Source: a virus. Taken from it: a DNA stretch of 22,619 bases. The DNA lies in IMG/VR virus record IMGVR_UViG_3300001450_011794, positions 4,740 to 27,358 of that record. One strand, written 5' to 3'. The translations under genes and the position numbers were made by a program. Positions 1,285 through 22,150 of the stretch are shown one piece after another (within the stretch, counting starts at the first letter, position 1; every line of letters begins with the position of its first letter). A model generated the notes under the pieces. It had not been told where the DNA came from and searched no databases. It was given only the letters and a program-made list of their open reading frames with translations.

Positions 1285-3735
1285 GTGGAGAAGAAAAAAG
1301 TAGCAAATGTGATTATTTTGGATGATAATGATCGTTTTTTAGTAATTAAGCGGACAAAAACTGCACCAACTCACCCTTTACACTGGGATTTGCCCGGAGG
1401 ACACGTTGAAAAAGGCGAATCTTTTGAAGAAGCAGCAATAAGAGAGGCTTTTGAAGAGACAAATCTCGAAATTAGCGCGCTACAGGCTGCAAAAGTGACA
1501 AATCCGTTCAGAAGCTTCTTTATTACAAGAAAATATTCCGGAAATATTGAATTTAAAGAAAATCCAGAGTCAGGATTCGTCGAACACAGCGATCACAAGT
1601 GGGTAACACTCGAAAAATATAAAAAAATGGAAGATCTAAGCATAAAACCAGAGGATATTGAAAAAGCAATGGAAAATTTATCGAAAAAAAGCCTTTATGA
1701 GCAAAAATATCAAGAAAGATTGGAACTTTTGCTTATGGAAGGCCGCAAAGACAACGTTTTTAAAAAATATGCCGCATTGGGGCAGCAAAATTTAGGAAGA
1801 TTTGCTGATTATGACGAAGAAAACAATTATAAGCACTTAGGGTGGATGGCAAAACAACTTGCGGCCATTCCAGACCTAGATAAATATAAAACAACTGCGC
1901 AGCGCGAAGAGGCTGTAAAGATTACCGACGCTGTTGATAAATTTCTGGAGTATGGTCCTCGCTTAAAGCGCAAAGATCTAAATCAGTACAAAAATATTGA
2001 AGATATTGCCATGGCAGTCCATACCGATATTATAATGCCGCGAATTGCAAAGTCCAAAAAGGAGAGAGGCAAAGATCCTAGAACAACACAGTTCTCAGAA
2101 AGGGGCGAAGGAACTATAATATACGAAGATGATCGATATTTTGTAGTTAGACCTGATACTCTGGAGGCTTCTTGTTACTTTGGACAAAAAACTAGATGGT
2201 GTATAGCCCAGCCAGGAAATTCATATTTTACAGACTATACGGAAAATGAACAGAAGACATTTTATTTTATAAAAGATGATGGCTTGAGAGCAGATGACCA
2301 GTTCCGCCAAATGGCAGTTCAAATGGGGCCGGGTCCGACATTTGAAATGTTCTGGGATAGACACGATGAGCCATATGATGACCATACGGAAGATTGGGAA
2401 ATGTTCGCGGAGCATATGCATGATGCAACAGATATGCCGATCGGTATTGCTGAAAAAATTATGGAAGCAATATATGATCACGCAGAAGACAATCCACCTC
2501 AAGAGAATGCGTTTCGCGCATTATCTATGAGAGTTGATGAGGAGAACGAATTTGATTCACAAAATATAACACTCCACTCCGGTTTCGATGATTATGACGA
2601 CGGGCGGGGGTCGATGAGTCCCTATGGCGAAGTGAGGATTGTCATTGATCTGGATGAACAGTTAGAAGAATTTTTAGCACAGAGGGCATTCATAGATTGG
2701 GAAGACGAAGAAGCAGACTTTCAAGAAATATTTATTGAACGACTTGAGGCGGGCATAACAGAAAATGAGGAAGAGTATCAAGATTATAAAACTGGCGAAG
2801 AAGTAGAATATCCAGAAGGTTTTGCAACCGATTGGTGGCACATAATAGGTGTTGAACCCGAGTCGTATGTAGATTTTGAAAACTTAAGAATAGGCATAGT
2901 TGGTGATAAGTTCTATCTTGATTTTTATGTGGCGGAGAAAGGTAGTTATGGAGACACAAGACTGTTTACAGACGCTGATGAGGCGGAGTATGAGATTGGG
3001 CACTTAGCTAGTATATTTGATAACGATGCTGACTTCTCTGGCTTGGAGCCTTTGTTATATCAGTTGATTCCTGAGATGATTACAGGCGGGATGGCAATGT
3101 CGGATGTAATCGAAGCATTCGATAAAATGGCTAAAGCCCTGCGACTTACTTCTTATGGCGATCATAAAATATCGATCGATGTAACTCGGGTCGATCAATA
3201 TAACCGTAATGCTGATATGAAGGCTTTATTTGACATTCCAGTGCCAGATTTTTATAAAAGTCTTGGTTATAATACTGGAGAGATTGCAATGCAAGAACAG
3301 TTGGAAGAAATTATTAGAACAACGTTAAAAGAAATATGGGATAGCGCACACGCTATGGCTGCAAATCAACTGCGGTTACAGTTTGGCTCTGAATATGATG
3401 AAAGAGGTAGTGGTATGGCCATGCCAGGGGTTGTTGTAAATCTTGTAGATCAAACGCGCCAACGAAAAGCAATCCGAGCATGGCTTAGGGTTGATGTCCG
3501 ATTTATGGATACACCAGAAGAAATGTGGACAGCATATAATTTCTTTAAGTTTATTGCCACTAATTATGATAAATTGTCGGCAAAGTTCACAAAAGAATTT
3601 AATCGAGAAATAGAAATTATGCAAAAAAGAACTGGTCAAGTTGTTGGCTATGCCGGCGGGGGTCGGGTAAATATAGGGGGTGATGAAGAGGCAGTAATCA
3701 CCGATGACGATATTGTATCAGAAGGAAGCAAATAA
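1285..3735 (+). CDS. Nudix hydrolase fused to a large WCIA-motif phage domain (816 aa)
   Basis: The start is GTG, chosen because AAGGA lies 6 nt upstream and the Nudix domain begins at once. Residues 1-125 form a Nudix domain with a complete box (G39, E45, then REAFEE at 53-58), so it probably hydrolyses a nucleoside diphosphate derivative; the substrate cannot be read from the sequence. Residues 135-310 carry LLLMEGRKDNVFKKY, a YKHLGWMAKQ helix and then T-x-W-C-I-A (WCIA 305-308) followed by YF..Y and FYFI. The same WC(T/I)A block recurs in the tagged protein at 6141-7319. The remaining 500 residues are acidic, without a motif I recognise, and end in a Gly-rich segment and an acidic tail. 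The L-L-M-E site at 149-152 resembles a prohead protease site. It is directly followed by the Lys/Cys-rich gene with no gap. Nudix call firm; the rest unknown. Confidence 0.85.
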   Translation: MEKKKVANVIILDDNDRFLVIKRTKTAPTHPLHWDLPGGHVEKGESFEEAAIREAFEETNLEISALQAAKVTNPFRSFFITRKYSGNIEFKENPESGFVEHSDHKWVTLEKYKKMEDLSIKPEDIEKAMENLSKKSLYEQKYQERLELLLMEGRKDNVFKKYAALGQQNLGRFADYDEENNYKHLGWMAKQLAAIPDLDKYKTTAQREEAVKITDAVDKFLEYGPRLKRKDLNQYKNIEDIAMAVHTDIIMPRIAKSKKERGKDPRTTQFSERGEGTIIYEDDRYFVVRPDTLEASCYFGQKTRWCIAQPGNSYFTDYTENEQKTFYFIKDDGLRADDQFRQMAVQMGPGPTFEMFWDRHDEPYDDHTEDWEMFAEHMHDATDMPIGIAEKIMEAIYDHAEDNPPQENAFRALSMRVDEENEFDSQNITLHSGFDDYDDGRGSMSPYGEVRIVIDLDEQLEEFLAQRAFIDWEDEEADFQEIFIERLEAGITENEEEYQDYKTGEEVEYPEGFATDWWHIIGVEPESYVDFENLRIGIVGDKFYLDFYVAEKGSYGDTRLFTDADEAEYEIGHLASIFDNDADFSGLEPLLYQLIPEMITGGMAMSDVIEAFDKMAKALRLTSYGDHKISIDVTRVDQYNRNADMKALFDIPVPDFYKSLGYNTGEIAMQEQLEEIIRTTLKEIWDSAHAMAANQLRLQFGSEYDERGSGMAMPGVVVNLVDQTRQRKAIRAWLRVDVRFMDTPEEMWTAYNFFKFIATNYDKLSAKFTKEFNREIEIMQKRTGQVVGYAGGGRVNIGGDEEAVITDDDIVSEGSK

Positions 3736-4812
3736 ATGTCTAAACAAAACTTAGAAGAAAAGAAAGCACAGAAATGCTGGCCCGGTTATAAAAAGAAGGG
3801 CACCAAAAAAATGTTTGGTAAGACAGTCAATAACTGTGTCAAAAAAGAAGAGCTTGAAGCAGTTCTTGATGAGAAGCGCAAAAAGAAGAAGAAAAAGTCC
3901 AAAGGCAAGAAGGACGCCTGCTACCACAAAGTAAAATCTCGATATAAAGTTTGGCCTTCTGCATATGCTTCGGGTGCTCTTGTAAAATGTCGCAAAGTTG
4001 GTGCTAAGAATTGGGGAAATTCTAAAAAAGAGTCTCTTCGCATTGTCATCGAAGATGAGCTTTCTCAAATAATGTTAGAAGGAGAACAGGATATCGACGA
4101 TCTTAAAAAAGCAATTATGAAAGCCTTAAGAGACGAAGGTGGTGCAGCAGGGATGGATGCTTTAGAAAAGCATACAGATGCATCTGAAGAAGAAATAAGA
4201 AAAGTCATCAACAAAGAAGATGATATTCAAGTTCATGACGATGGCGATATTATTGATATTAGTGGACTAGAAAAAACAATCGAAGAAGAGCTTATGGCAT
4301 ATTTATTGGAAAAGAAGCAAGCAAGTTCAGAAGATAGTCTTCGAGATTGGTTTGGCCGGAAAGGCGAGAAAGGCTCCACCGGGGGCTGGGTTGACTGTAA
4401 TGCTCCAGATGGCGATGGTGGTTATAAAAAATGTGCTCAAGGCGATAGAAAAAAGAAGCCGTATTGTCGTCCGACACCTTCGGCATGCAAAGAAGAGCCT
4501 CAAAATGAAGAATTGGACAGAATTATCGATGAGGAAATCGACGCGGTTCTTGATGAGAAAAAGAAAAAGAAAGCCTGTAAACCCTCGAAGGGAAAGCGCT
4601 TTGCGAAGCGTGTAAATGGCAAATGTCGCTCATACGGGCAAAAAGGAAAAGCCAAGGATGGCGGAGATCGTATACGACCCGGCACAAAGAAGGGCGATGC
4701 GTACTGTGCGCGATCAGCAAAGATTAAGAAGTGCAAAAACCCCCCCTGCGCCAACGCATTATCCCGCAAGAAATGGAAGTGTCGTGGCTCAAAATCTATG
4801 AAGAGTGAATAA
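3736..4812 (+). CDS. Modular Lys/Cys-rich protein, probable DNA-associated virion protein (358 aa)
   Basis: The protein alternates basic Cys-containing modules with short acidic helices. Module 1 (residues 1-37) has CWPGYKKKGTKKMFGK; module 2 (47-98) has CYHKVKSRYKVWPSAYASG; residues 119-178 look like a small winged-helix segment; module 3 (200-252) has GGWVDCN and YCRPTPSAC; module 4 (275-358) is rich in Lys and Cys. The linkers end in L-x-E-like sites: VLDE46, MLE115, LLE192 and VLDE274, each followed soon by basic residues. In T4, L/I-x-E sites are cut by the prohead protease, so I infer that this may be a precursor processed into several small basic peptides that bind packaged DNA. The modules resemble phage domains of unknown function I recall from marine phages. 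SD-like GAAGGAAG at 3721-3728. Coding is certain, role uncertain. Confidence 0.8.
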   Translation: MSKQNLEEKKAQKCWPGYKKKGTKKMFGKTVNNCVKKEELEAVLDEKRKKKKKKSKGKKDACYHKVKSRYKVWPSAYASGALVKCRKVGAKNWGNSKKESLRIVIEDELSQIMLEGEQDIDDLKKAIMKALRDEGGAAGMDALEKHTDASEEEIRKVINKEDDIQVHDDGDIIDISGLEKTIEEELMAYLLEKKQASSEDSLRDWFGRKGEKGSTGGWVDCNAPDGDGGYKKCAQGDRKKKPYCRPTPSACKEEPQNEELDRIIDEEIDAVLDEKKKKKACKPSKGKRFAKRVNGKCRSYGQKGKAKDGGDRIRPGTKKGDAYCARSAKIKKCKNPPCANALSRKKWKCRGSKSMKSE

Positions 4813-5270: not shown

Positions 5271-5714
5271 ATGAAGTTATTGCTTGAAAATTGGCGTAAG
5301 TTTGTGAATGAGGCAAAAAAATTAGTTTGCCCGAAGCCGACACAGGATCTTGAATTAAATACAAAGAACAGAAATGCGGCTATTCAAGCAGAGCATATAC
5401 AATATGGGCCTTTAAACCTAGCAGATGAAGAATACTGGGAAAAGGCTGCAGATCATTGGAATACCGATGTTGAAGTCGCGAAAAAGTCTCGTTGTGGAAA
5501 TTGTGTCGCTTTTGATGTTTCGCCAAGAATGTTAGAGTGTCTTCCTGGTCCTGTCTCAGAACCAATTGAAGATGAAGAAGGCAAATTGGGTTATTGTTGG
5601 ATGCATCATTTTAAATGTCATTCTGCACGGGCTTGTTATACATGGGCCGGCGGTGGTCCAATTTCAGAAGATGAAGTTTCTGCTGAGTGGCAAGAGCCAG
5701 GAGCGAAGGAGTGA
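5271..5714 (+). CDS. Tagged Cys-rich protein, possible Fe-S or Zn protein (147 aa)
   Basis: Residues 1-15 are the shared N-terminal tag MKLLLENWRKFVNE followed by Ala, like the T4 capsid-targeting sequence with its cut after (I/L)-x-E; here the position is V-N-E, a slightly weaker site. The C-terminal half has six Cys in the order C75-x2-C78-x11-C90-x18-C109-x6-C116-x5-C122-x-W, followed by GGGPI. This pattern is reminiscent of small high-potential iron-sulfur proteins and of a Cys-rich phage family I recall from marine myoviruses, but Zn binding is equally possible. A complete iscU lies 1.6 kb downstream, which fits a demand for Fe-S clusters. Good SD (GGGAGAAG) 5 nt upstream. First gene of the tagged cluster; its stop overlaps the next start. 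Confidence 0.8.
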   Translation: MKLLLENWRKFVNEAKKLVCPKPTQDLELNTKNRNAAIQAEHIQYGPLNLADEEYWEKAADHWNTDVEVAKKSRCGNCVAFDVSPRMLECLPGPVSEPIEDEEGKLGYCWMHHFKCHSARACYTWAGGGPISEDEVSAEWQEPGAKE

Positions 5715-7339: not shown

Positions 7340-7348
7340 TGGAAATAA
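7316..7348 (+). pseudogene. Truncated tag minigene (10 codons) before iscU
   Basis: ATG 7316 opens a frame reading MKLLFENWWK and then TAA at 7346-7348. Its first 24 nt match the tag DNA of the kinase-like gene at 7723 at 22 of 24 positions, so it is clearly a copy of the tag. After ENW the CGA codon of other copies is replaced by TGG and the frame closes two codons later. The change creates GGTGGA at 7338-7343, 6 nt from the iscU ATG at 7350, so the broken tag supplies the iscU ribosome binding site. It may be a remnant left when iscU was inserted, or a translated leader peptide that couples iscU to the upstream gene (stop and start lie 1 nt apart). Confidence 0.8.
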
Positions 7349-7349
7349 T

Positions 7350-7739
7350 ATGGCATATTCAAATAAAGTAATAGATCACTTTGAAAATCCACAGAACGTG
7401 GGCAGTATGGATCGAAATGATCTGGATGTGGGCACTGGTATAGTTGGTGCGCCGGCTTGCGGCGATGTAATGAAGCTTCAACTGAGAATCAATGACGATA
7501 ATATTATCGAGGACGCCAAGTTTAAAACATTTGGTTGTGGTTCTGCAATTGCTTCTAGTTCGCTAATTACGACAATGGTTAAGGGGAAGCACACGAGCGA
7601 AGCAGAATCCATCAGCAACTCTGATATTGCACGCGAGCTTTCTCTCCCGCCGGTTAAGATTCATTGTTCTGTTTTGGCAGAAGACGCAATCAAAGTCGCT
7701 ATTAAAGATTGGAAGGATAAAAATGAAGCTACTATTTGA
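7350..7739 (+). CDS. iscU: IscU iron-sulfur cluster scaffold protein (129 aa)
   Basis: The protein begins MAYSNKVIDHFENPQNVGS and keeps the length and numbering of bacterial IscU. The three cluster ligands C37, C63 and C106, the aspartate D39 and H105 are all present, and the HscA-binding motif LPPVK is intact at 99-103. In cells IscU receives sulfur from IscS and iron and builds [2Fe-2S] clusters that HscA/HscB release to target proteins. No iscS, hscA or hscB is in this window, so the protein would have to use the host machinery. It does not carry the tag: ATG 7350 is preferred over an in-frame ATG at 7329 because homology starts at MAYS. The last codons and TGA lie within the tag DNA of the next gene. 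Complete and apparently functional; a captured host-type gene. Confidence 0.95.
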   Translation: MAYSNKVIDHFENPQNVGSMDRNDLDVGTGIVGAPACGDVMKLQLRINDDNIIEDAKFKTFGCGSAIASSSLITTMVKGKHTSEAESISNSDIARELSLPPVKIHCSVLAEDAIKVAIKDWKDKNEATI

Positions 7740-12501: not shown

Positions 12502-14652
12502 ATGAGAACCATTCTTAAAGAAGGTAAAGCAAACACCCATTTGACCCATTTAGAAGAACTAGTTCTGACAAGAGGCGAAGAAGGCTATAAAATGGCCAGA
12601 TCGTTCTTGTTGGAAATGATTAAAGTTCTTAGAGGTGATGGAAATACCAAAGTCAGCACTTCGGTTAAATGGGATGGCGCGCCGGCAATCTTCGCAGGCA
12701 TTAATCCAGAAAATGGAAAGTTTTTTGTTGGAACAAAATCTATTTTTAATAAAGTTCCCAAAATAAACTATACTGTAGAAGATGTCGATCGAAATCACGG
12801 GCATGCGCCGGGATTAGTCGATAAATTAAAGAAAGCGCTGTATTATTTACCTTCTTTGGGTATTAACAAAATCCTTCAGGGCGATTTCATGTTCGATGAT
12901 GGAATGATAGAAGTTGTTGATATTGATGGGGAGGCTCATTATAGATTTAAACCAAATACAATTGTTTATGCTGTTCCTGTTGATTCTAAATTGGGACAGC
13001 AAATAAAAAATGCGAAGTTTGGTATTGTCTTTCATACAACATATGATGGCTTACATAGCGGAGCCTCGTTTGGAGCCGATGTAAGTGGACTCAATAGAAG
13101 GCCAGATGTTTGGTTTGATGATGCGTTCTTTAAAAACGATACGGGCTATGTAACATTAACTGACGATGATGAGGAGCGGGTTGTAACGCTTGTTACGCAA
13201 GCCGACGCAGTTAATAGTAAGATAAATTATGAAAATCTTCCTTTAGCGAAAATGAATATCTATCTTAATAGCGAGATTCGCGGGGGTGCATTTGCTGATG
13301 ATGCAGAAGGCTCGTATCAAGGCTTTCTGAATTGGAATCAAAATAGGCTCGACAAAAGAATCAATAAATTAAAAAGCGAAAAAGGCAAGCAACGTGCTAT
13401 GGCTACCGGTCAAGCAGAGTTAGAAGCTATTGAGCGCTCCAAAAACGACATTTTAAATATTTTTAGACTCTCGCGACTGTTATTTGAAGCAAAGAACGTC
13501 TTTATTGAAAAATATAACAATGCGGTGTATGCCACTAAACATTTTGTTGACGATGGCTCTGGCGATCTTAAAGTATCAAACCCAGAAGGCTATGTCGCTG
13601 TTGATTATACAGGCAACGGAGTCAAATTTGTTGATAGATTAGAGTTTAGTCGTGCTAACTTTATGATGGATAAAGGGTTTAAGAAGGCTGGCGTAAAAGA
13701 AAATAACATATTAGAAATATTTTGGAACAATAAGAAATCCACCAAAATGTCTCTTAAAGAATGGCATACATTGCTTCCAAAAACCAGAAAAACGAATAAA
13801 AAGCTTTTCGAAAGCCTTAAATCCGGTAAAATGGTCACCTCTTTGGTGTCTGATAGTAAAATGGTAAAGCTAGCTCTAGCAGAAGCAGTTCAGTGGGCTA
13901 TTGACGAGCAAGAAGAAACTTCCCCTGACATACCCCCTGGTAAAACTATTGCGATCGTTCCAGGGGCATTCAAGCCTCCGCATCTAGGTCACCTTGGTAT
14001 GGTCATGACCTATTCTAGTATGGCTGACGAGGTAGTGGTGCTAATATCTTCTCCAAAAAAACTAAAGTCTCAAAGGACCATTAATGGTAAGTCGGTAACT
14101 GCTCAGAATTCTAAACAAATTTGGGATATGATGATATCGGACGCCGGACTGACAAATGTTTTAGTTCAAATTTCTAATGAGCCATCACCCGTTAGGGCAA
14201 CTTTTCAATATGTTGGCGAAGATGGCCCATTGGATCCAGGAACAACGTTGATTTTAGGAGCTAGCAGAAAAGGTGGCGATCATAAGCGTTGGGCGGGTGC
14301 AGATAAATATATAAAACCCGGAGTTAAGCTTATCGATCCTGCAGTTAGTGCTGTGGTGCCAGAACTTCGCGGTGACGGAGTACCCTTTAGTGCTACCGAC
14401 GCAAGAAATGCTTTATCAAACAATGAGGACGCAGATCTCTTCTTTGGGGATGGCAAAACGCAAATAGCTAGAGACATACTAGGATTGGATGAGATGCAAG
14501 AGATGTCAGCAGTGGCAGGAATGGCAGGAGGGACAGGAGGGGCTGTGACTGGTTATTCTGGCCCTTTGGGGTCTACAAAGGATGATGAAGAAGAAAGAGA
14601 ATTTGTTAATGAAGTCATCTACTATTTATACAAACAAGGAATTTTAAAATGA
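12502..14652 (+). CDS. Two-domain nucleotidyltransferase: ligase-like N-terminus, cytidylyltransferase-like C-terminus (716 aa)
   Basis: The C-terminal domain (about 483-680) has VPGAFKPPHLGHLGM with HLGH at 494-497 and later FSATDARNAL, the (H/T)xGH and SxTxxR-like motifs of the cytidylyltransferase/NMN adenylyltransferase superfamily; this call is firm. The N-terminal 400 residues, conserved in large phages as I recall, contain VKWDGAPA (K56-x-D58-G59), LQGDFMF (126-131), GIVFHTTYDG (174-183), PEGYVAV (361-367) and VKFVDR (374-379). In that order these match motifs I, III, IIIa, IV and V of covalent nucleotidyltransferases (DNA/RNA ligases, capping enzymes), so K56 may form a lysyl-AMP. That is my inference. 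The protein could link nucleotide transfer to RNA/DNA end repair or NAD metabolism. SD AGGA about 9 nt before ATG. The next gene overlaps by 4 nt. Confidence 0.85.
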   Translation: MRTILKEGKANTHLTHLEELVLTRGEEGYKMARSFLLEMIKVLRGDGNTKVSTSVKWDGAPAIFAGINPENGKFFVGTKSIFNKVPKINYTVEDVDRNHGHAPGLVDKLKKALYYLPSLGINKILQGDFMFDDGMIEVVDIDGEAHYRFKPNTIVYAVPVDSKLGQQIKNAKFGIVFHTTYDGLHSGASFGADVSGLNRRPDVWFDDAFFKNDTGYVTLTDDDEERVVTLVTQADAVNSKINYENLPLAKMNIYLNSEIRGGAFADDAEGSYQGFLNWNQNRLDKRINKLKSEKGKQRAMATGQAELEAIERSKNDILNIFRLSRLLFEAKNVFIEKYNNAVYATKHFVDDGSGDLKVSNPEGYVAVDYTGNGVKFVDRLEFSRANFMMDKGFKKAGVKENNILEIFWNNKKSTKMSLKEWHTLLPKTRKTNKKLFESLKSGKMVTSLVSDSKMVKLALAEAVQWAIDEQEETSPDIPPGKTIAIVPGAFKPPHLGHLGMVMTYSSMADEVVVLISSPKKLKSQRTINGKSVTAQNSKQIWDMMISDAGLTNVLVQISNEPSPVRATFQYVGEDGPLDPGTTLILGASRKGGDHKRWAGADKYIKPGVKLIDPAVSAVVPELRGDGVPFSATDARNALSNNEDADLFFGDGKTQIARDILGLDEMQEMSAVAGMAGGTGGAVTGYSGPLGSTKDDEEEREFVNEVIYYLYKQGILK

Positions 14653-15462: not shown

Positions 15463-15777
15463 ATGAAAGAAATAAAAACTAACAATATTAATAGTCTAAC
15501 ACAAAAAGGCTTATTAAACAATGAATTATTGGTTTTAATATCAAATTTAACTTTAGAAGATTTAATAGCTATCAAAATTGAGCTAGCTTCTTTACATTTA
15601 AAAAATAGACTTTATGGTCTTGACATTTGGAAGAAAATGAATTATATTACTAAAGAAGCATTATTGAGAGTTGCTATATCCTGCACTAAATCAAATTCTG
15701 AAGCATCAAGGTTTTTAGGAATTTCCTTAGATAGTTATAGAAAGAACCTTCAGAAATTTAATATGTATAAGGAATAA
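15463..15777 (+). CDS. Fis-like helix-turn-helix DNA-binding protein (104 aa)
   Basis: Residues 20-60 are helical (LVLISNLTLEDLIAIKIELAS), and residues 66-101 read ALLRVAISCTKSNSEASRFLGISLDSYRKNLQKFN: the S-x-x-E-A-x-x-x-L-G-I-S spacing is the Fis-type helix-turn-helix, also found in the C-terminal domain of NtrC regulators. The protein lacks the AAA+ and receiver domains, so it probably binds DNA or holds RNA polymerase as a small dimer; I recall short proteins of this type in cyanophages. It is the first gene behind a perfect sigma70 promoter and has no SD. That suggests an early gene transcribed by the host polymerase, perhaps a switch to later expression. Function inferred. Confidence 0.8.
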   Translation: MKEIKTNNINSLTQKGLLNNELLVLISNLTLEDLIAIKIELASLHLKNRLYGLDIWKKMNYITKEALLRVAISCTKSNSEASRFLGISLDSYRKNLQKFNMYKE

Positions 15778-16490: not shown

Positions 16491-16841
16491 ATGAAAAGTA
16501 AGTTTTATGGAGCACCAATCACTAATATTTGGGGGAATACAATTCGTTATGGTATTGTTCGCGACTCAAAGGAGAGGGATGGTTGGCTTTATTTAGAGTG
16601 CGATTGGATTGATGATGAGCTTTATGAACACGATGTAGAAAGGGTTTGTAATCTAAGAGGCATTGAAAAAGATGAAAGTTTAGAATGGCTTAGAATCGAT
16701 AAAATAAATATTATTGACATCAAAGAGCATGTAACAAAGCTTTCAAAACTATCTTATGCAGTTAAGGAAGTAGATGGTAGCGCTGATTATAATTATTATT
16801 TAACCGAAAGTTCCCACGATCCTTATACTATATTAACTTAA
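16491..16841 (+). CDS. Small phage protein abutting tmRNA (116 aa)
   Basis: A good AGGAG precedes ATG 16491. The protein starts with a GAPITNIWGNTIRYGIVRDSKERDGWLYLECDWIDDE stretch, in which G-N-x-I-x-Y-G-I-V and a Trp-rich strand again look like an SH3-like small beta protein. The second half (EHVTKLSKLSYAVKEV) is helical. I know of no function. Its stop codon TAA (16839-16841) ends on the base directly before the first G of the tmRNA, so mRNA and tmRNA precursor are probably made from the same transcript and cut apart by host RNases. Confidence 0.65.
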   Translation: MKSKFYGAPITNIWGNTIRYGIVRDSKERDGWLYLECDWIDDELYEHDVERVCNLRGIEKDESLEWLRIDKINIIDIKEHVTKLSKLSYAVKEVDGSADYNYYLTESSHDPYTILT

Positions 16842-17177
16842 GGGGGTAATCTAGGCTTCGACAGGGTAAAAGATTAAAAGAGTGCAAGCAGGTTAGATAC
16901 GACCTTAACAGTTCAAAAAACATAGTTGCAAATAACAACACACACTTCGAAGCAGTCGCGTTAGCGGCCTAATCGGGAGGCTGATTAGAGCCTTCTGTCC
17001 AATCTAATCAACACAACAGATAAGTTGTAAAAATCAAAAAAGCTCAATGCAATAGGCCGGTAAGCGTTGTTTTAAAGCCGGCTATCTTTGTTAGTTTGTT
17101 ATAGTAAACTAAATAAGCTTGTGAATGACTTAATATTGGCATTATTCTGGACGGGGGTTCGACTCCCCCTACCTCCA
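16842..17177 (+). ncRNA. ssrA: tmRNA (ssrA), one-piece
   Basis: The ends fold as a tRNA-like domain. Acceptor strand GGGGGTA (16842-16848) pairs with TACCTCC (17170-17176), giving seven pairs with G-U at position 3, the alanine identity pair G3-U70. The T arm is GGGGG (17153-17157), loop TTCGACT and CCCCC (17165-17169), followed by the discriminator A at 17177. CCA is not encoded. The tag reading frame starts at GCA 16928 and stops at TAA 16970-16972: ANNNTHFEAVALAA, ending in the ALAA that ClpXP recognises. The GGCTTCGAC motif near the 5' end matches other tmRNAs. It would rescue stalled ribosomes and tag their products, with SmpB from the host. Length of about 336 nt is normal. The one-piece form means it is not the permuted kind. 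No promoter is visible directly upstream. Confidence 0.96.
16928..16972 (+). other. tmRNA tag reading frame (ANNNTHFEAVALAA)
   Basis: Fourteen sense codons and TAA inside the tmRNA, with GCA (Ala) as the resume codon preceded by TAGTT. The peptide ends in ALAA as in most tmRNA tags. Comparison with host tmRNA tags is the best clue in this window to the host. Confidence 0.9.
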
Positions 17178-17186
17178 CTTTAAATT

Positions 17187-17459
17187 ATGGAAACACTTTT
17201 TTTGACACCTTTTTCGTTTTTTTGTTGGCTTTGGATAATAAGCTTTACTATTATATATTTAAGTCGTGAGACGCTATATAACTATATGGTAGAGGTCTTA
17301 GAAGCGGCAAAAGAGAGACTTAGGGTTCCATCCCCTCACGAAATTTCAGAACACAATTTTAATTTTAACCATCCAGCCACTAACGTTGAGGAAGAAGACC
17401 CATTAACCTATTCACATTTAGGGAAAAAAATTTCAGTATTATCAGATACAGAACAATGA
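17187..17459 (+). CDS. Small membrane protein of unknown function (90 aa)
   Basis: The N-terminus is one long hydrophobic segment (about residues 3-25, FLTPFSFFCWLWIISFTIIYL), which should act as a signal anchor or single transmembrane helix. After it comes a soluble, acidic part of about 65 residues without a motif. It begins 9 nt after the tmRNA end. There is no clear SD; the ATG follows a stretch of AT. The stop overlaps the HNH start by 4 nt (ATGA). Function unknown; it could be a short-lived membrane factor or a minor lysis gene. Confidence 0.6.
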   Translation: METLFLTPFSFFCWLWIISFTIIYLSRETLYNYMVEVLEAAKERLRVPSPHEISEHNFNFNHPATNVEEEDPLTYSHLGKKISVLSDTEQ

Positions 17460-17977
17460 AAAAAATAAAAATATATCCAAAAGCCTTAAAGCTAGATTCA
17501 TCTTACAGACCACTAGGATTAATCGACTCTTTAGAGGCTTTAGTTTTATGTATTTGCGGCAAAGCGGTAGCAGTCGAACAATATTGCAAAACAATAAGTT
17601 CGGTTTCACAAGTTTTTAAATTACCAGCCGTTATTGTTTTGAAAAGATTCGTTAAACACAGATTTACTGAACTTGCTCCAAGAAAAAGAAATATATTTTG
17701 GAGAGATGCGAACGTTTGTCAATACTGCACTAAGGCATTTCACATTAAAGATTTGACAGTTGATCATGTGATCCCTAAAAGCCGAGGTGGAAAAAATACT
17801 TGGCAAAACTTGGCAACCAGTTGTATGAAATGTAATCAAAAGAAAGGGGCAAGAACCCCAGAAGAGGCCAACATGAGGCTTTTGAATAAGCCACATAAGC
17901 CATCCAGTTTTCTTTTGAAGAACGTCGGTAAGGGCCAAATTAGTGATTTGTGGTCTAATTATCTATGGCACGTTTAA
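17456..17977 (+). CDS. HNH endonuclease (173 aa)
   Basis: The protein has the full layout of a widespread bacterial HNH family: an N-terminal part reading KLDSSYRPLGLIDSLEALVL and GKAVAVEQ, then the Zn-binding CQYC, the HNH core LTVDHVIPKSRGG with WQNL, and SCMKCNQKKG, which supplies the second Cys pair, followed by a PEEANMRLL helix. All core residues are present (D-H in VDHV, N in WQNL, N in CNQKK), so it is probably active. It cuts DNA; in phages such enzymes act in packaging, recombination or homing. Position next to a tmRNA would suit a homing enzyme, but no intron is visible. Overlaps the previous gene by 4 nt. Confidence 0.9.
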   Translation: MKKIKIYPKALKLDSSYRPLGLIDSLEALVLCICGKAVAVEQYCKTISSVSQVFKLPAVIVLKRFVKHRFTELAPRKRNIFWRDANVCQYCTKAFHIKDLTVDHVIPKSRGGKNTWQNLATSCMKCNQKKGARTPEEANMRLLNKPHKPSSFLLKNVGKGQISDLWSNYLWHV

Positions 17978-21139: not shown

Positions 21140-22150
21140 ATGTTAGCAGAATATATATGGGTTGATGGGACATCCCCGTATAAGTTATTACGAAGTAAAA
21201 CAAAGGTTATCGAGGGTTGTAAGAATACACTCGACCCTGATGATTTTCCGCTATGGGGTTTTGATGGCTCTTCAACAAATCAGGCTTCTGGGTGCAATTC
21301 CGATTGTATCCTAAAGCCTGTTTTTGTCGTTGCGGATCCTTTTCGACCACGCAATAGTGATGGGGTTTTAATATTGTGTGAAGTTCTGAATGTAGAATTG
21401 ACAGAACACGATAGCAATACACGCCGAATGGCGAGAGAAGTTGAACAAAAATATTTTAAACAGAAGGCATTATACGGTTTAGAACAGGAATACACACTTT
21501 TTAAAGATGGCCAGCCTTTAGGCTTTCCAGAAAATGGATATCCAGAACCTCAAGGTAAATATTATTGTGGTGTTGGAGGAAATAGGGCATTTGGAAGAGA
21601 TATTGTGACAGCGCATCTAGAGCTTTGTTTATCGGCCGGCTTAGAAGTTGGCGGAATCAATGCAGAGGTTATGCCGGGACAATGGGAATTCCAAGTTGGG
21701 CCATTAGGAACAGTGTCAGCCGGTGACCATCTTTATATGGCGCGATATATACTTGAAAGAGTATCCGAGATTCATGGCGTTTCAGTAAATTATGCTGCAA
21801 AACCGGTTGAAGGTGATTGGAATGGCGCAGGCTGTCATACTAATTTTTCTACAGAGAATATGAGGAAGTCGTATCTCGCCTGCATCGAGGCTTGCGAATC
21901 TCTCGGCAATAATGTCGATGAGCACATTAAAAACTATGGTTATAACATTGAAAGCCGCCTAACTGGACAACATGAGACTTGTTCCTATAAGGAATTCCGC
22001 TACGGTGTATCAGACAGGACAGCGAGCATTCGTATACCATGGCAGGTTAAAAAAGATCAAAAAGGTTATATTGAGGACAGAAGACCTAATGCGGATTGTG
22101 ATCCGTATGTGGTCTGCAGTTTAATTTTAAAAACAGTTATGGAGTATTAA
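21140..22150 (+). CDS. Type II glutamine synthetase (336 aa)
   Basis: The protein has the short GSII size and motifs: WGFDGSST (39-46), GLEQEYTLF (113-121), AEVMPGQWEFQVGP (175-188), AGCHTNFST (230-238) and EDRRPNADCDPY (312-323). The Glu and His metal ligands of the active site are visible in these motifs. The enzyme makes glutamine from glutamate, ammonium and ATP in the cytoplasm. GSII (glnII-like) is the eukaryote-type enzyme, found in only some bacteria. A phage copy could hold up glutamine supply for nucleotide and protein synthesis in infected cells. SD GGAG is about 11 nt upstream; a weak promoter region of 39 nt precedes it. The stop shares its last A with the next ATG, so the two genes are coupled. 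Length and motifs appear complete. Confidence 0.93.
   Translation: MLAEYIWVDGTSPYKLLRSKTKVIEGCKNTLDPDDFPLWGFDGSSTNQASGCNSDCILKPVFVVADPFRPRNSDGVLILCEVLNVELTEHDSNTRRMAREVEQKYFKQKALYGLEQEYTLFKDGQPLGFPENGYPEPQGKYYCGVGGNRAFGRDIVTAHLELCLSAGLEVGGINAEVMPGQWEFQVGPLGTVSAGDHLYMARYILERVSEIHGVSVNYAAKPVEGDWNGAGCHTNFSTENMRKSYLACIEACESLGNNVDEHIKNYGYNIESRLTGQHETCSYKEFRYGVSDRTASIRIPWQVKKDQKGYIEDRRPNADCDPYVVCSLILKTVMEY

Follow-up and report, generated by a model that had tools for sequence, protein, structure and literature searches.

Several described systems resemble the element reported here. Bacterial one-piece tmRNA (Rfam RF00023) has a tRNA-like domain with a G3-U70 pair, a tag frame, pseudoknots PK2, PK3 and PK4 and a tag ending in LAA, all of which the present gene shares; it differs from the bacterial molecule in being phage-borne, in its tag block ANNN-x-HF, in a PK1 whose second stem was not found and in a 3′ end without encoded CCA. 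The 5′ processing of bacterial tmRNA is performed by RNase P (PMC3985003). The E. coli tag contains binding sites for SspB, ClpX and ClpA, LAA is the common C-terminal tag motif and ClpXP is the main protease (PMC9382460). Phage genomes with tmRNA made up 402 of 18,146, about 2%, in one survey (PMC9004378). Among cultured phages, the mycobacteriophages Bxz1 and Wildcat, for example, and Bacillus phage G likewise carry complete ssrA genes and are presumed to use host SmpB; a comparison of our gene with 50,697 phage records gave no match at the DNA level. The tmRNA of the OM43 phage Melnitz also belongs to a marine phage and has had the same roles proposed for it, but its gene is permuted, in two pieces, and lies under a glutamine riboswitch (PMC9004378); the present gene is one-piece, and no Rfam riboswitch matched in the DNA analysed at the gathering threshold. 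Huge phages encode tmRNA together with SmpB (PMC7162821); rescue of translation is phage-carried there too, but in our case no SmpB was found in the (partial) viral records searched. A large clade with dozens of diverged tmRNAs bears on the question of why phages carry tmRNA.

The window, the whole stretch of DNA that was analysed, comprises 22,619 nucleotides (positions 4,740 to 27,358) of the IMG/VR virus record IMGVR_UViG_3300001450_011794, a fragment of 50,003 bases whose PhoH, HNH endonuclease and exonuclease families fit a phage. The record carries one tmRNA. ARAGORN reported a complete one-piece tmRNA with the tag ANNNTHFEAVALAA followed by a stop codon as its sole tmRNA call, and the covariance model RF00023, a comparison suggested by a previous sequence-only reading of this DNA, accepts the molecule at positions 16842–17180 over the full model (1–374) with 112.6 bits, against a gathering score of 47, and E 1.3e-43. 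The proposal made in that reading, a phage tmRNA with a G3-U70 pair and with intact tRNA-like ends, T arm and tag frame, is thus borne out, by both programs and by inspection of the sequence. Its end coordinate, 17177, is the discriminator A; an incomplete CCA starts at 17178, the 3′ end reading A and then CTT. The permuted two-piece model (RF04321) scored 45.9 bits, below 47, over just the shared tag region and is rejected, since the one-piece model spans the entire gene. The features of the locus are collected in Table 1.

Table 1. Features of the tmRNA locus, in window coordinates
Feature	Position	Strand	Basis or remark
116-aa ORF, its stop abutting the tmRNA	16491–16841	+	No known family; kept beside tmRNA in loci L002 and L003
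ssrA, one-piece tmRNA gene	16842–17178	+	ARAGORN; Rfam RF00023, 112.6 bits
Acceptor 5′ strand GGGGGTA, carries G3	16842–16848	+	Direct reading
Hairpin in PK1 position, stem AGGT/ACCT	16890–16905	+	Helix 4
Tag frame ANNNTHFEAVALAA (16928–16969) and stop TAA (16970–16972)	16928–16972	+	ARAGORN; coding constraint
PK2	16978–17009	+	Helices 5 and 6; in the second stem both sides changed in 5 of 6 pairs
PK3, short	17013–17035	+	Helices 7 and 8
PK4	17045–17084	+	Helices 9 and 10
Additional hairpin preceding P2 3′ strand	17091–17112	+	Helix 11
T arm GGGGG-TTCGACT-CCCCC	17153–17169	+	Helix 12, 100% paired in 35 sequences
Acceptor 3′ strand TACCTCC, then A17177 and CTT	17170–17176	+	Direct reading
90-aa ORF, start 9 bases past the tmRNA	17187–17459	+	ORF reading

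Relatives were drawn from IMG/VR in three ways, by PhoH, by tag pattern and by a small protein encoded upstream of the tmRNA, which yielded 98 distinct viral tmRNAs spread across an uncultivated phage clade. Among 50,697 phage records there was no DNA relative of the tmRNA, and the window PhoH was less than 60% identical to every one of them; the clade therefore has no close cultured member in that collection. It is probably marine, a habitat that we infer and did not take from sample records. G3-U70 (16844 with 17174 in the window, where GGGGGTA and TACCTCC form seven pairs) is present in all 98 tmRNAs and the 7-bp acceptor stem in 97. The 3′ CCA is encoded in 88 of the 98, unlike in the window copy, whose 3′ end must thus be completed by a CCA-adding enzyme.

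Covariation was measured on 35 aligned viral tmRNAs and backs PK2, PK3 and PK4. In the structure with these three pseudoknots and the additional hairpin, both sides had changed at 36 pairs, a number not reached in any of 500 shuffles. Pairing amounted to 93% in the proposed structure and to 28–42% when partners were slid, a percentage biased in favour of the structure because this was derived from the window sequence; the double changes are for that reason the stronger evidence. A second stem of PK1 was searched for and not found, while the first, a 4-bp hairpin, is present, so that PK1 appears to be reduced to it.

In its evolution the tag behaves as coding DNA: two blocks, ANNN-x-HF(E/D) and LAA, are constrained, and the spacer between them, which in relatives usually ends in Arg (RLAA), is free. 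So that the choice of sequences would not prejudge the result, constraint was computed again on 78 tmRNAs that had not been picked by tag pattern; 72 of them have ANNN. In these 72, pN/pS was 0.0 at codons 1–4, a zero that arises partly by construction as the subset is defined by ANNN (0.027 in all 78); it was about 1–1.2 at spacer codon 5, 0.18 at codons 6–8 and 0.02 at the last three codons. Position −4, occupied by R or A, is nearly free (0.72–0.96; 0.72 in the 72). With a larger tmRNA set the wrong reading frames gave 1.4 and 2.6, and LAA ends 90 of 92 ANNN tags of the larger set. The low values in the blocks indicate that the tag is maintained as a peptide with a loose spacer. The clade thus shows selection on the tag itself, not just on ribosome release, and which of its residues matter. 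The two-block plan is that of the E. coli tag, by analogy with which the first block may bind an adaptor. In L082, L083 and other loci with the tag ANNNNHFEQRLAA, the frame closes with two consecutive stops, TAGTAG or TAATAG.

The tag had been called unusual, with the suggestion that it may point to the host. It proved to be characteristic of its phage clade and not singular, and no host was identified from it: an exact tag-like pattern had no match in 84,980 species. With a relaxed pattern, ANNN tags from many phyla were among the matches listed, as was ANNNKHFALAA, partly similar to the phage tag, in two MAGs that look GC-rich by eye; this is insufficient to name a host. A search for SmpB (PF01668), proposed in the same reading, was run on the 50-kb record of the window, which is partial, and detected none; nor was any found in 48 other viral records of up to 273 kb, fragments included, while control searches were positive in 10 reference genomes. 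The phage tmRNA therefore probably uses host SmpB, which is the simplest assumption.

We conclude, with a probability of roughly 0.85, that the gene encodes a tmRNA that is functional and belongs to an uncultivated phage clade, probably a marine one. Its structure, its conservation across the clade and the protein-level selection on its tag, LAA included, support the view that the molecule is intact and acts in trans-translation. The apparently reduced PK1, the CCA that is not encoded and the 50-kb size of the record, beyond which the genome may hold an SmpB gene, weigh against it. The window tmRNA is genuine and ordinary in kind, phage tmRNAs being already known; the clade-wide constraint on the tag and the linked small gene described below go further. 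From the observed gene, structure, tag frame, tag selection and SmpB search we infer the following course of expression, processing, activity, proteolysis and benefit. The tmRNA would be transcribed within the gene cluster; host RNase P would cut the 5′ end at the stop codon of the neighbouring gene, host 3′ nucleases would form the 3′ end, CCA would be added and alanine loaded by way of G3-U70. Host SmpB and EF-Tu would deliver the molecule to ribosomes stalled on broken mRNAs, and the ribosome would move to the tag frame and append A-ANNNTHFEAVALAA. Through its LAA end the tagged product would be degraded in the host, probably by the protease ClpXP, and an adaptor or unfoldase would probably bind the conserved ANNN-x-HF block. 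For the phage, the benefit would lie in recycled ribosomes and removed fragments during mRNA destruction. The role of the tmRNA may be ribosome rescue while host mRNA decays, or the targeting of chosen proteins.

A working tmRNA might also serve to swap the host tag for a phage tag and so lead products to another protease or adaptor, or to another degradation rate. This would be a special case of the reading preferred above and not its opposite, and we hold it to be unlikely: the tag block without an exact match, the full constraint on its N-terminal part and the prevalence among relatives of RLAA (59 of 78 tags) over ALAA (17 of 78, the window tag among them) speak in its favour, but the LAA end is ordinary and the position that distinguishes R from A is the nearly free one. 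Far less probable is that the RNA is an inhibitor that binds host SmpB as a decoy and blocks host trans-translation, a role suggested for the tmRNA fragment that mycobacteriophage DS6A carries. That tagless phage tmRNA is similar to a molecule for which inhibition of tmRNA has been shown (PMC4131195; PMC11915505), but in the present clade selection keeps the tag frame, the stop codon, the surroundings of the resume codon and the pseudoknots, and a decoy has no need for a tag ending in LAA. The least probable reading is that of a host gene picked up through recombination and carried along by the phage without selection. It draws on the use of tmRNA genes as sites of prophage integration and on the occurrence of ssrA fragments in prophages (PMC9004378), but it is already contradicted by the selection data, by compensatory stem changes and by a complete, constrained tmRNA kept in dozens of phage lineages within a conserved gene neighbourhood.

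In most relatives a conserved basic protein of 66–85 amino acids is encoded directly before the tmRNA. Eighty loci (L287–L366) were collected by this protein alone, the tmRNA not being used; seven of the tmRNA 5′ ends were read by eye. A tmRNA followed the small gene in 78 of the 80, and in the remaining two, L329 and L356, none was seen. In 75 of the 80 the small gene is overlapped or immediately followed by the tmRNA, 5′ ends truncated by a contig border being counted as well, and in three it lies 60, 61 and 672 bases beyond. The stop codon of the small gene falls inside the tmRNA in 58 of the 80 loci, most commonly at nucleotides 6–8 (the TGA in GGGGATGA); in L292, for example, the gene occupies 2501–2710 and the tmRNA 2703–3036. 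A stop located where the tmRNA begins, or shortly ahead of it, is retained in 17 loci, and the frame of the overlap varies. As the loci are related, the count does not represent 80 independent events.

For the small protein, AlphaFold2 predicts a small fold with confidence (pLDDT 91.6), made up of two strands, a helix and three strands. Searches gave no convincing match in Pfam, nothing convincing in PHROGs (one marginal match, E 0.0045), no sequence relative in the PDB and no PDB fold at Foldseek E < 0.1 (VIA best Z 4.7); BFVD holds one unnamed viral protein that is 71% identical. No description of the pair of small gene and tmRNA was found in the open-access literature searched, which is not proof of absence. 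This tmRNA-linked gene seems to be the new element here, and its tight linkage makes the protein a concrete candidate for a phage-specific partner in trans-translation.

In E. coli, RNase III makes the nonstop mRNA through which ArfA is controlled (PMC3989581). The phage pair is similar in that the mRNA of the small gene would lose its stop by RNA processing and become a tmRNA substrate, since an RNase P cut before nucleotide 1 of the tmRNA would leave the upstream mRNA without a stop codon; the cut would be made by RNase P at the tmRNA 5′ end, whereas that of ArfA is made by RNase III. Such an overlap was found in relatives and not in the window itself. The overlapping pair may provide a naturally occurring example of tmRNA processing that renders an mRNA nonstop. 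Extended further by analogy, the two genes would form a module in which the small protein is a working partner (an adaptor, a tmRNA-binding protein or a back-up rescue factor), excision removes its stop, and the tmRNA tags and limits its neighbour as with ArfA, the partner having been lost or replaced in the lineage of the window. We advance this idea tentatively and doubt that it holds as a whole: the 17 loci with the stop at or before the tmRNA start and the varying overlap frame argue against a required mechanism, a pattern that genome compaction also explains.

The small protein was searched for and not found in the record of the window, nor in L002 and L003. The 116-aa ORF found in its place has no family match in Pfam or PHROGs; its homologs (57% identity) adjoin the tmRNA in L002 and L003, the only loci in which a scan found relatives, with partial matches in a few others. 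Its TAA (16839–16841) abuts nucleotide 1 of the tmRNA, as the sequence-only reading had stated; because the gene ends exactly there, its stop codon would survive processing. Many loci share the genes at 14649 and 15463, so that the neighbourhood of the window tmRNA is the same as in relatives, and the sequence of this tmRNA is closest, after those of L002 and L003, to tmRNAs with the small protein. These two similarities suggest that the small-protein neighbour was likely replaced in this lineage. No terminator was seen between the tmRNA and the 90-aa ORF, and scans for promoters and terminators did no better than chance.

Other genes of the window were also noted. The product of the one at 15463–15777 is 104 aa long and has relatives in the majority of the clade's tmRNA loci; in L046 and L250 the gene of a similar protein lies immediately before the tmRNA or overlaps it. 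Shortly after the tmRNA, an HNH endonuclease gene (17456–17977) perhaps represents a free-standing homing endonuclease. A glutamine synthetase gene (21140–22150; Pfam Gln-synt_N and Gln-synt_C) is present in this phage and has a relative in only one other collected locus, L042. There are also a NifU/IscU-like Fe-S scaffold gene (7344–7739; PF01592, E 1.1e-50; PHROG 8429) and a DUF6267 protein fused with a cytidylyltransferase-like domain (12502–14652). ORFs starting near 5271, 5714, 6141, 7723, 9140 and 15783 encode otherwise different proteins that share an N-terminal peptide like MKLLLENWRKFLNE. These peptides end in LxE or similar and resemble the T4-type capsid-targeting sequence cut by the prohead protease; by this analogy, the proteins that carry them may be packaged and injected.
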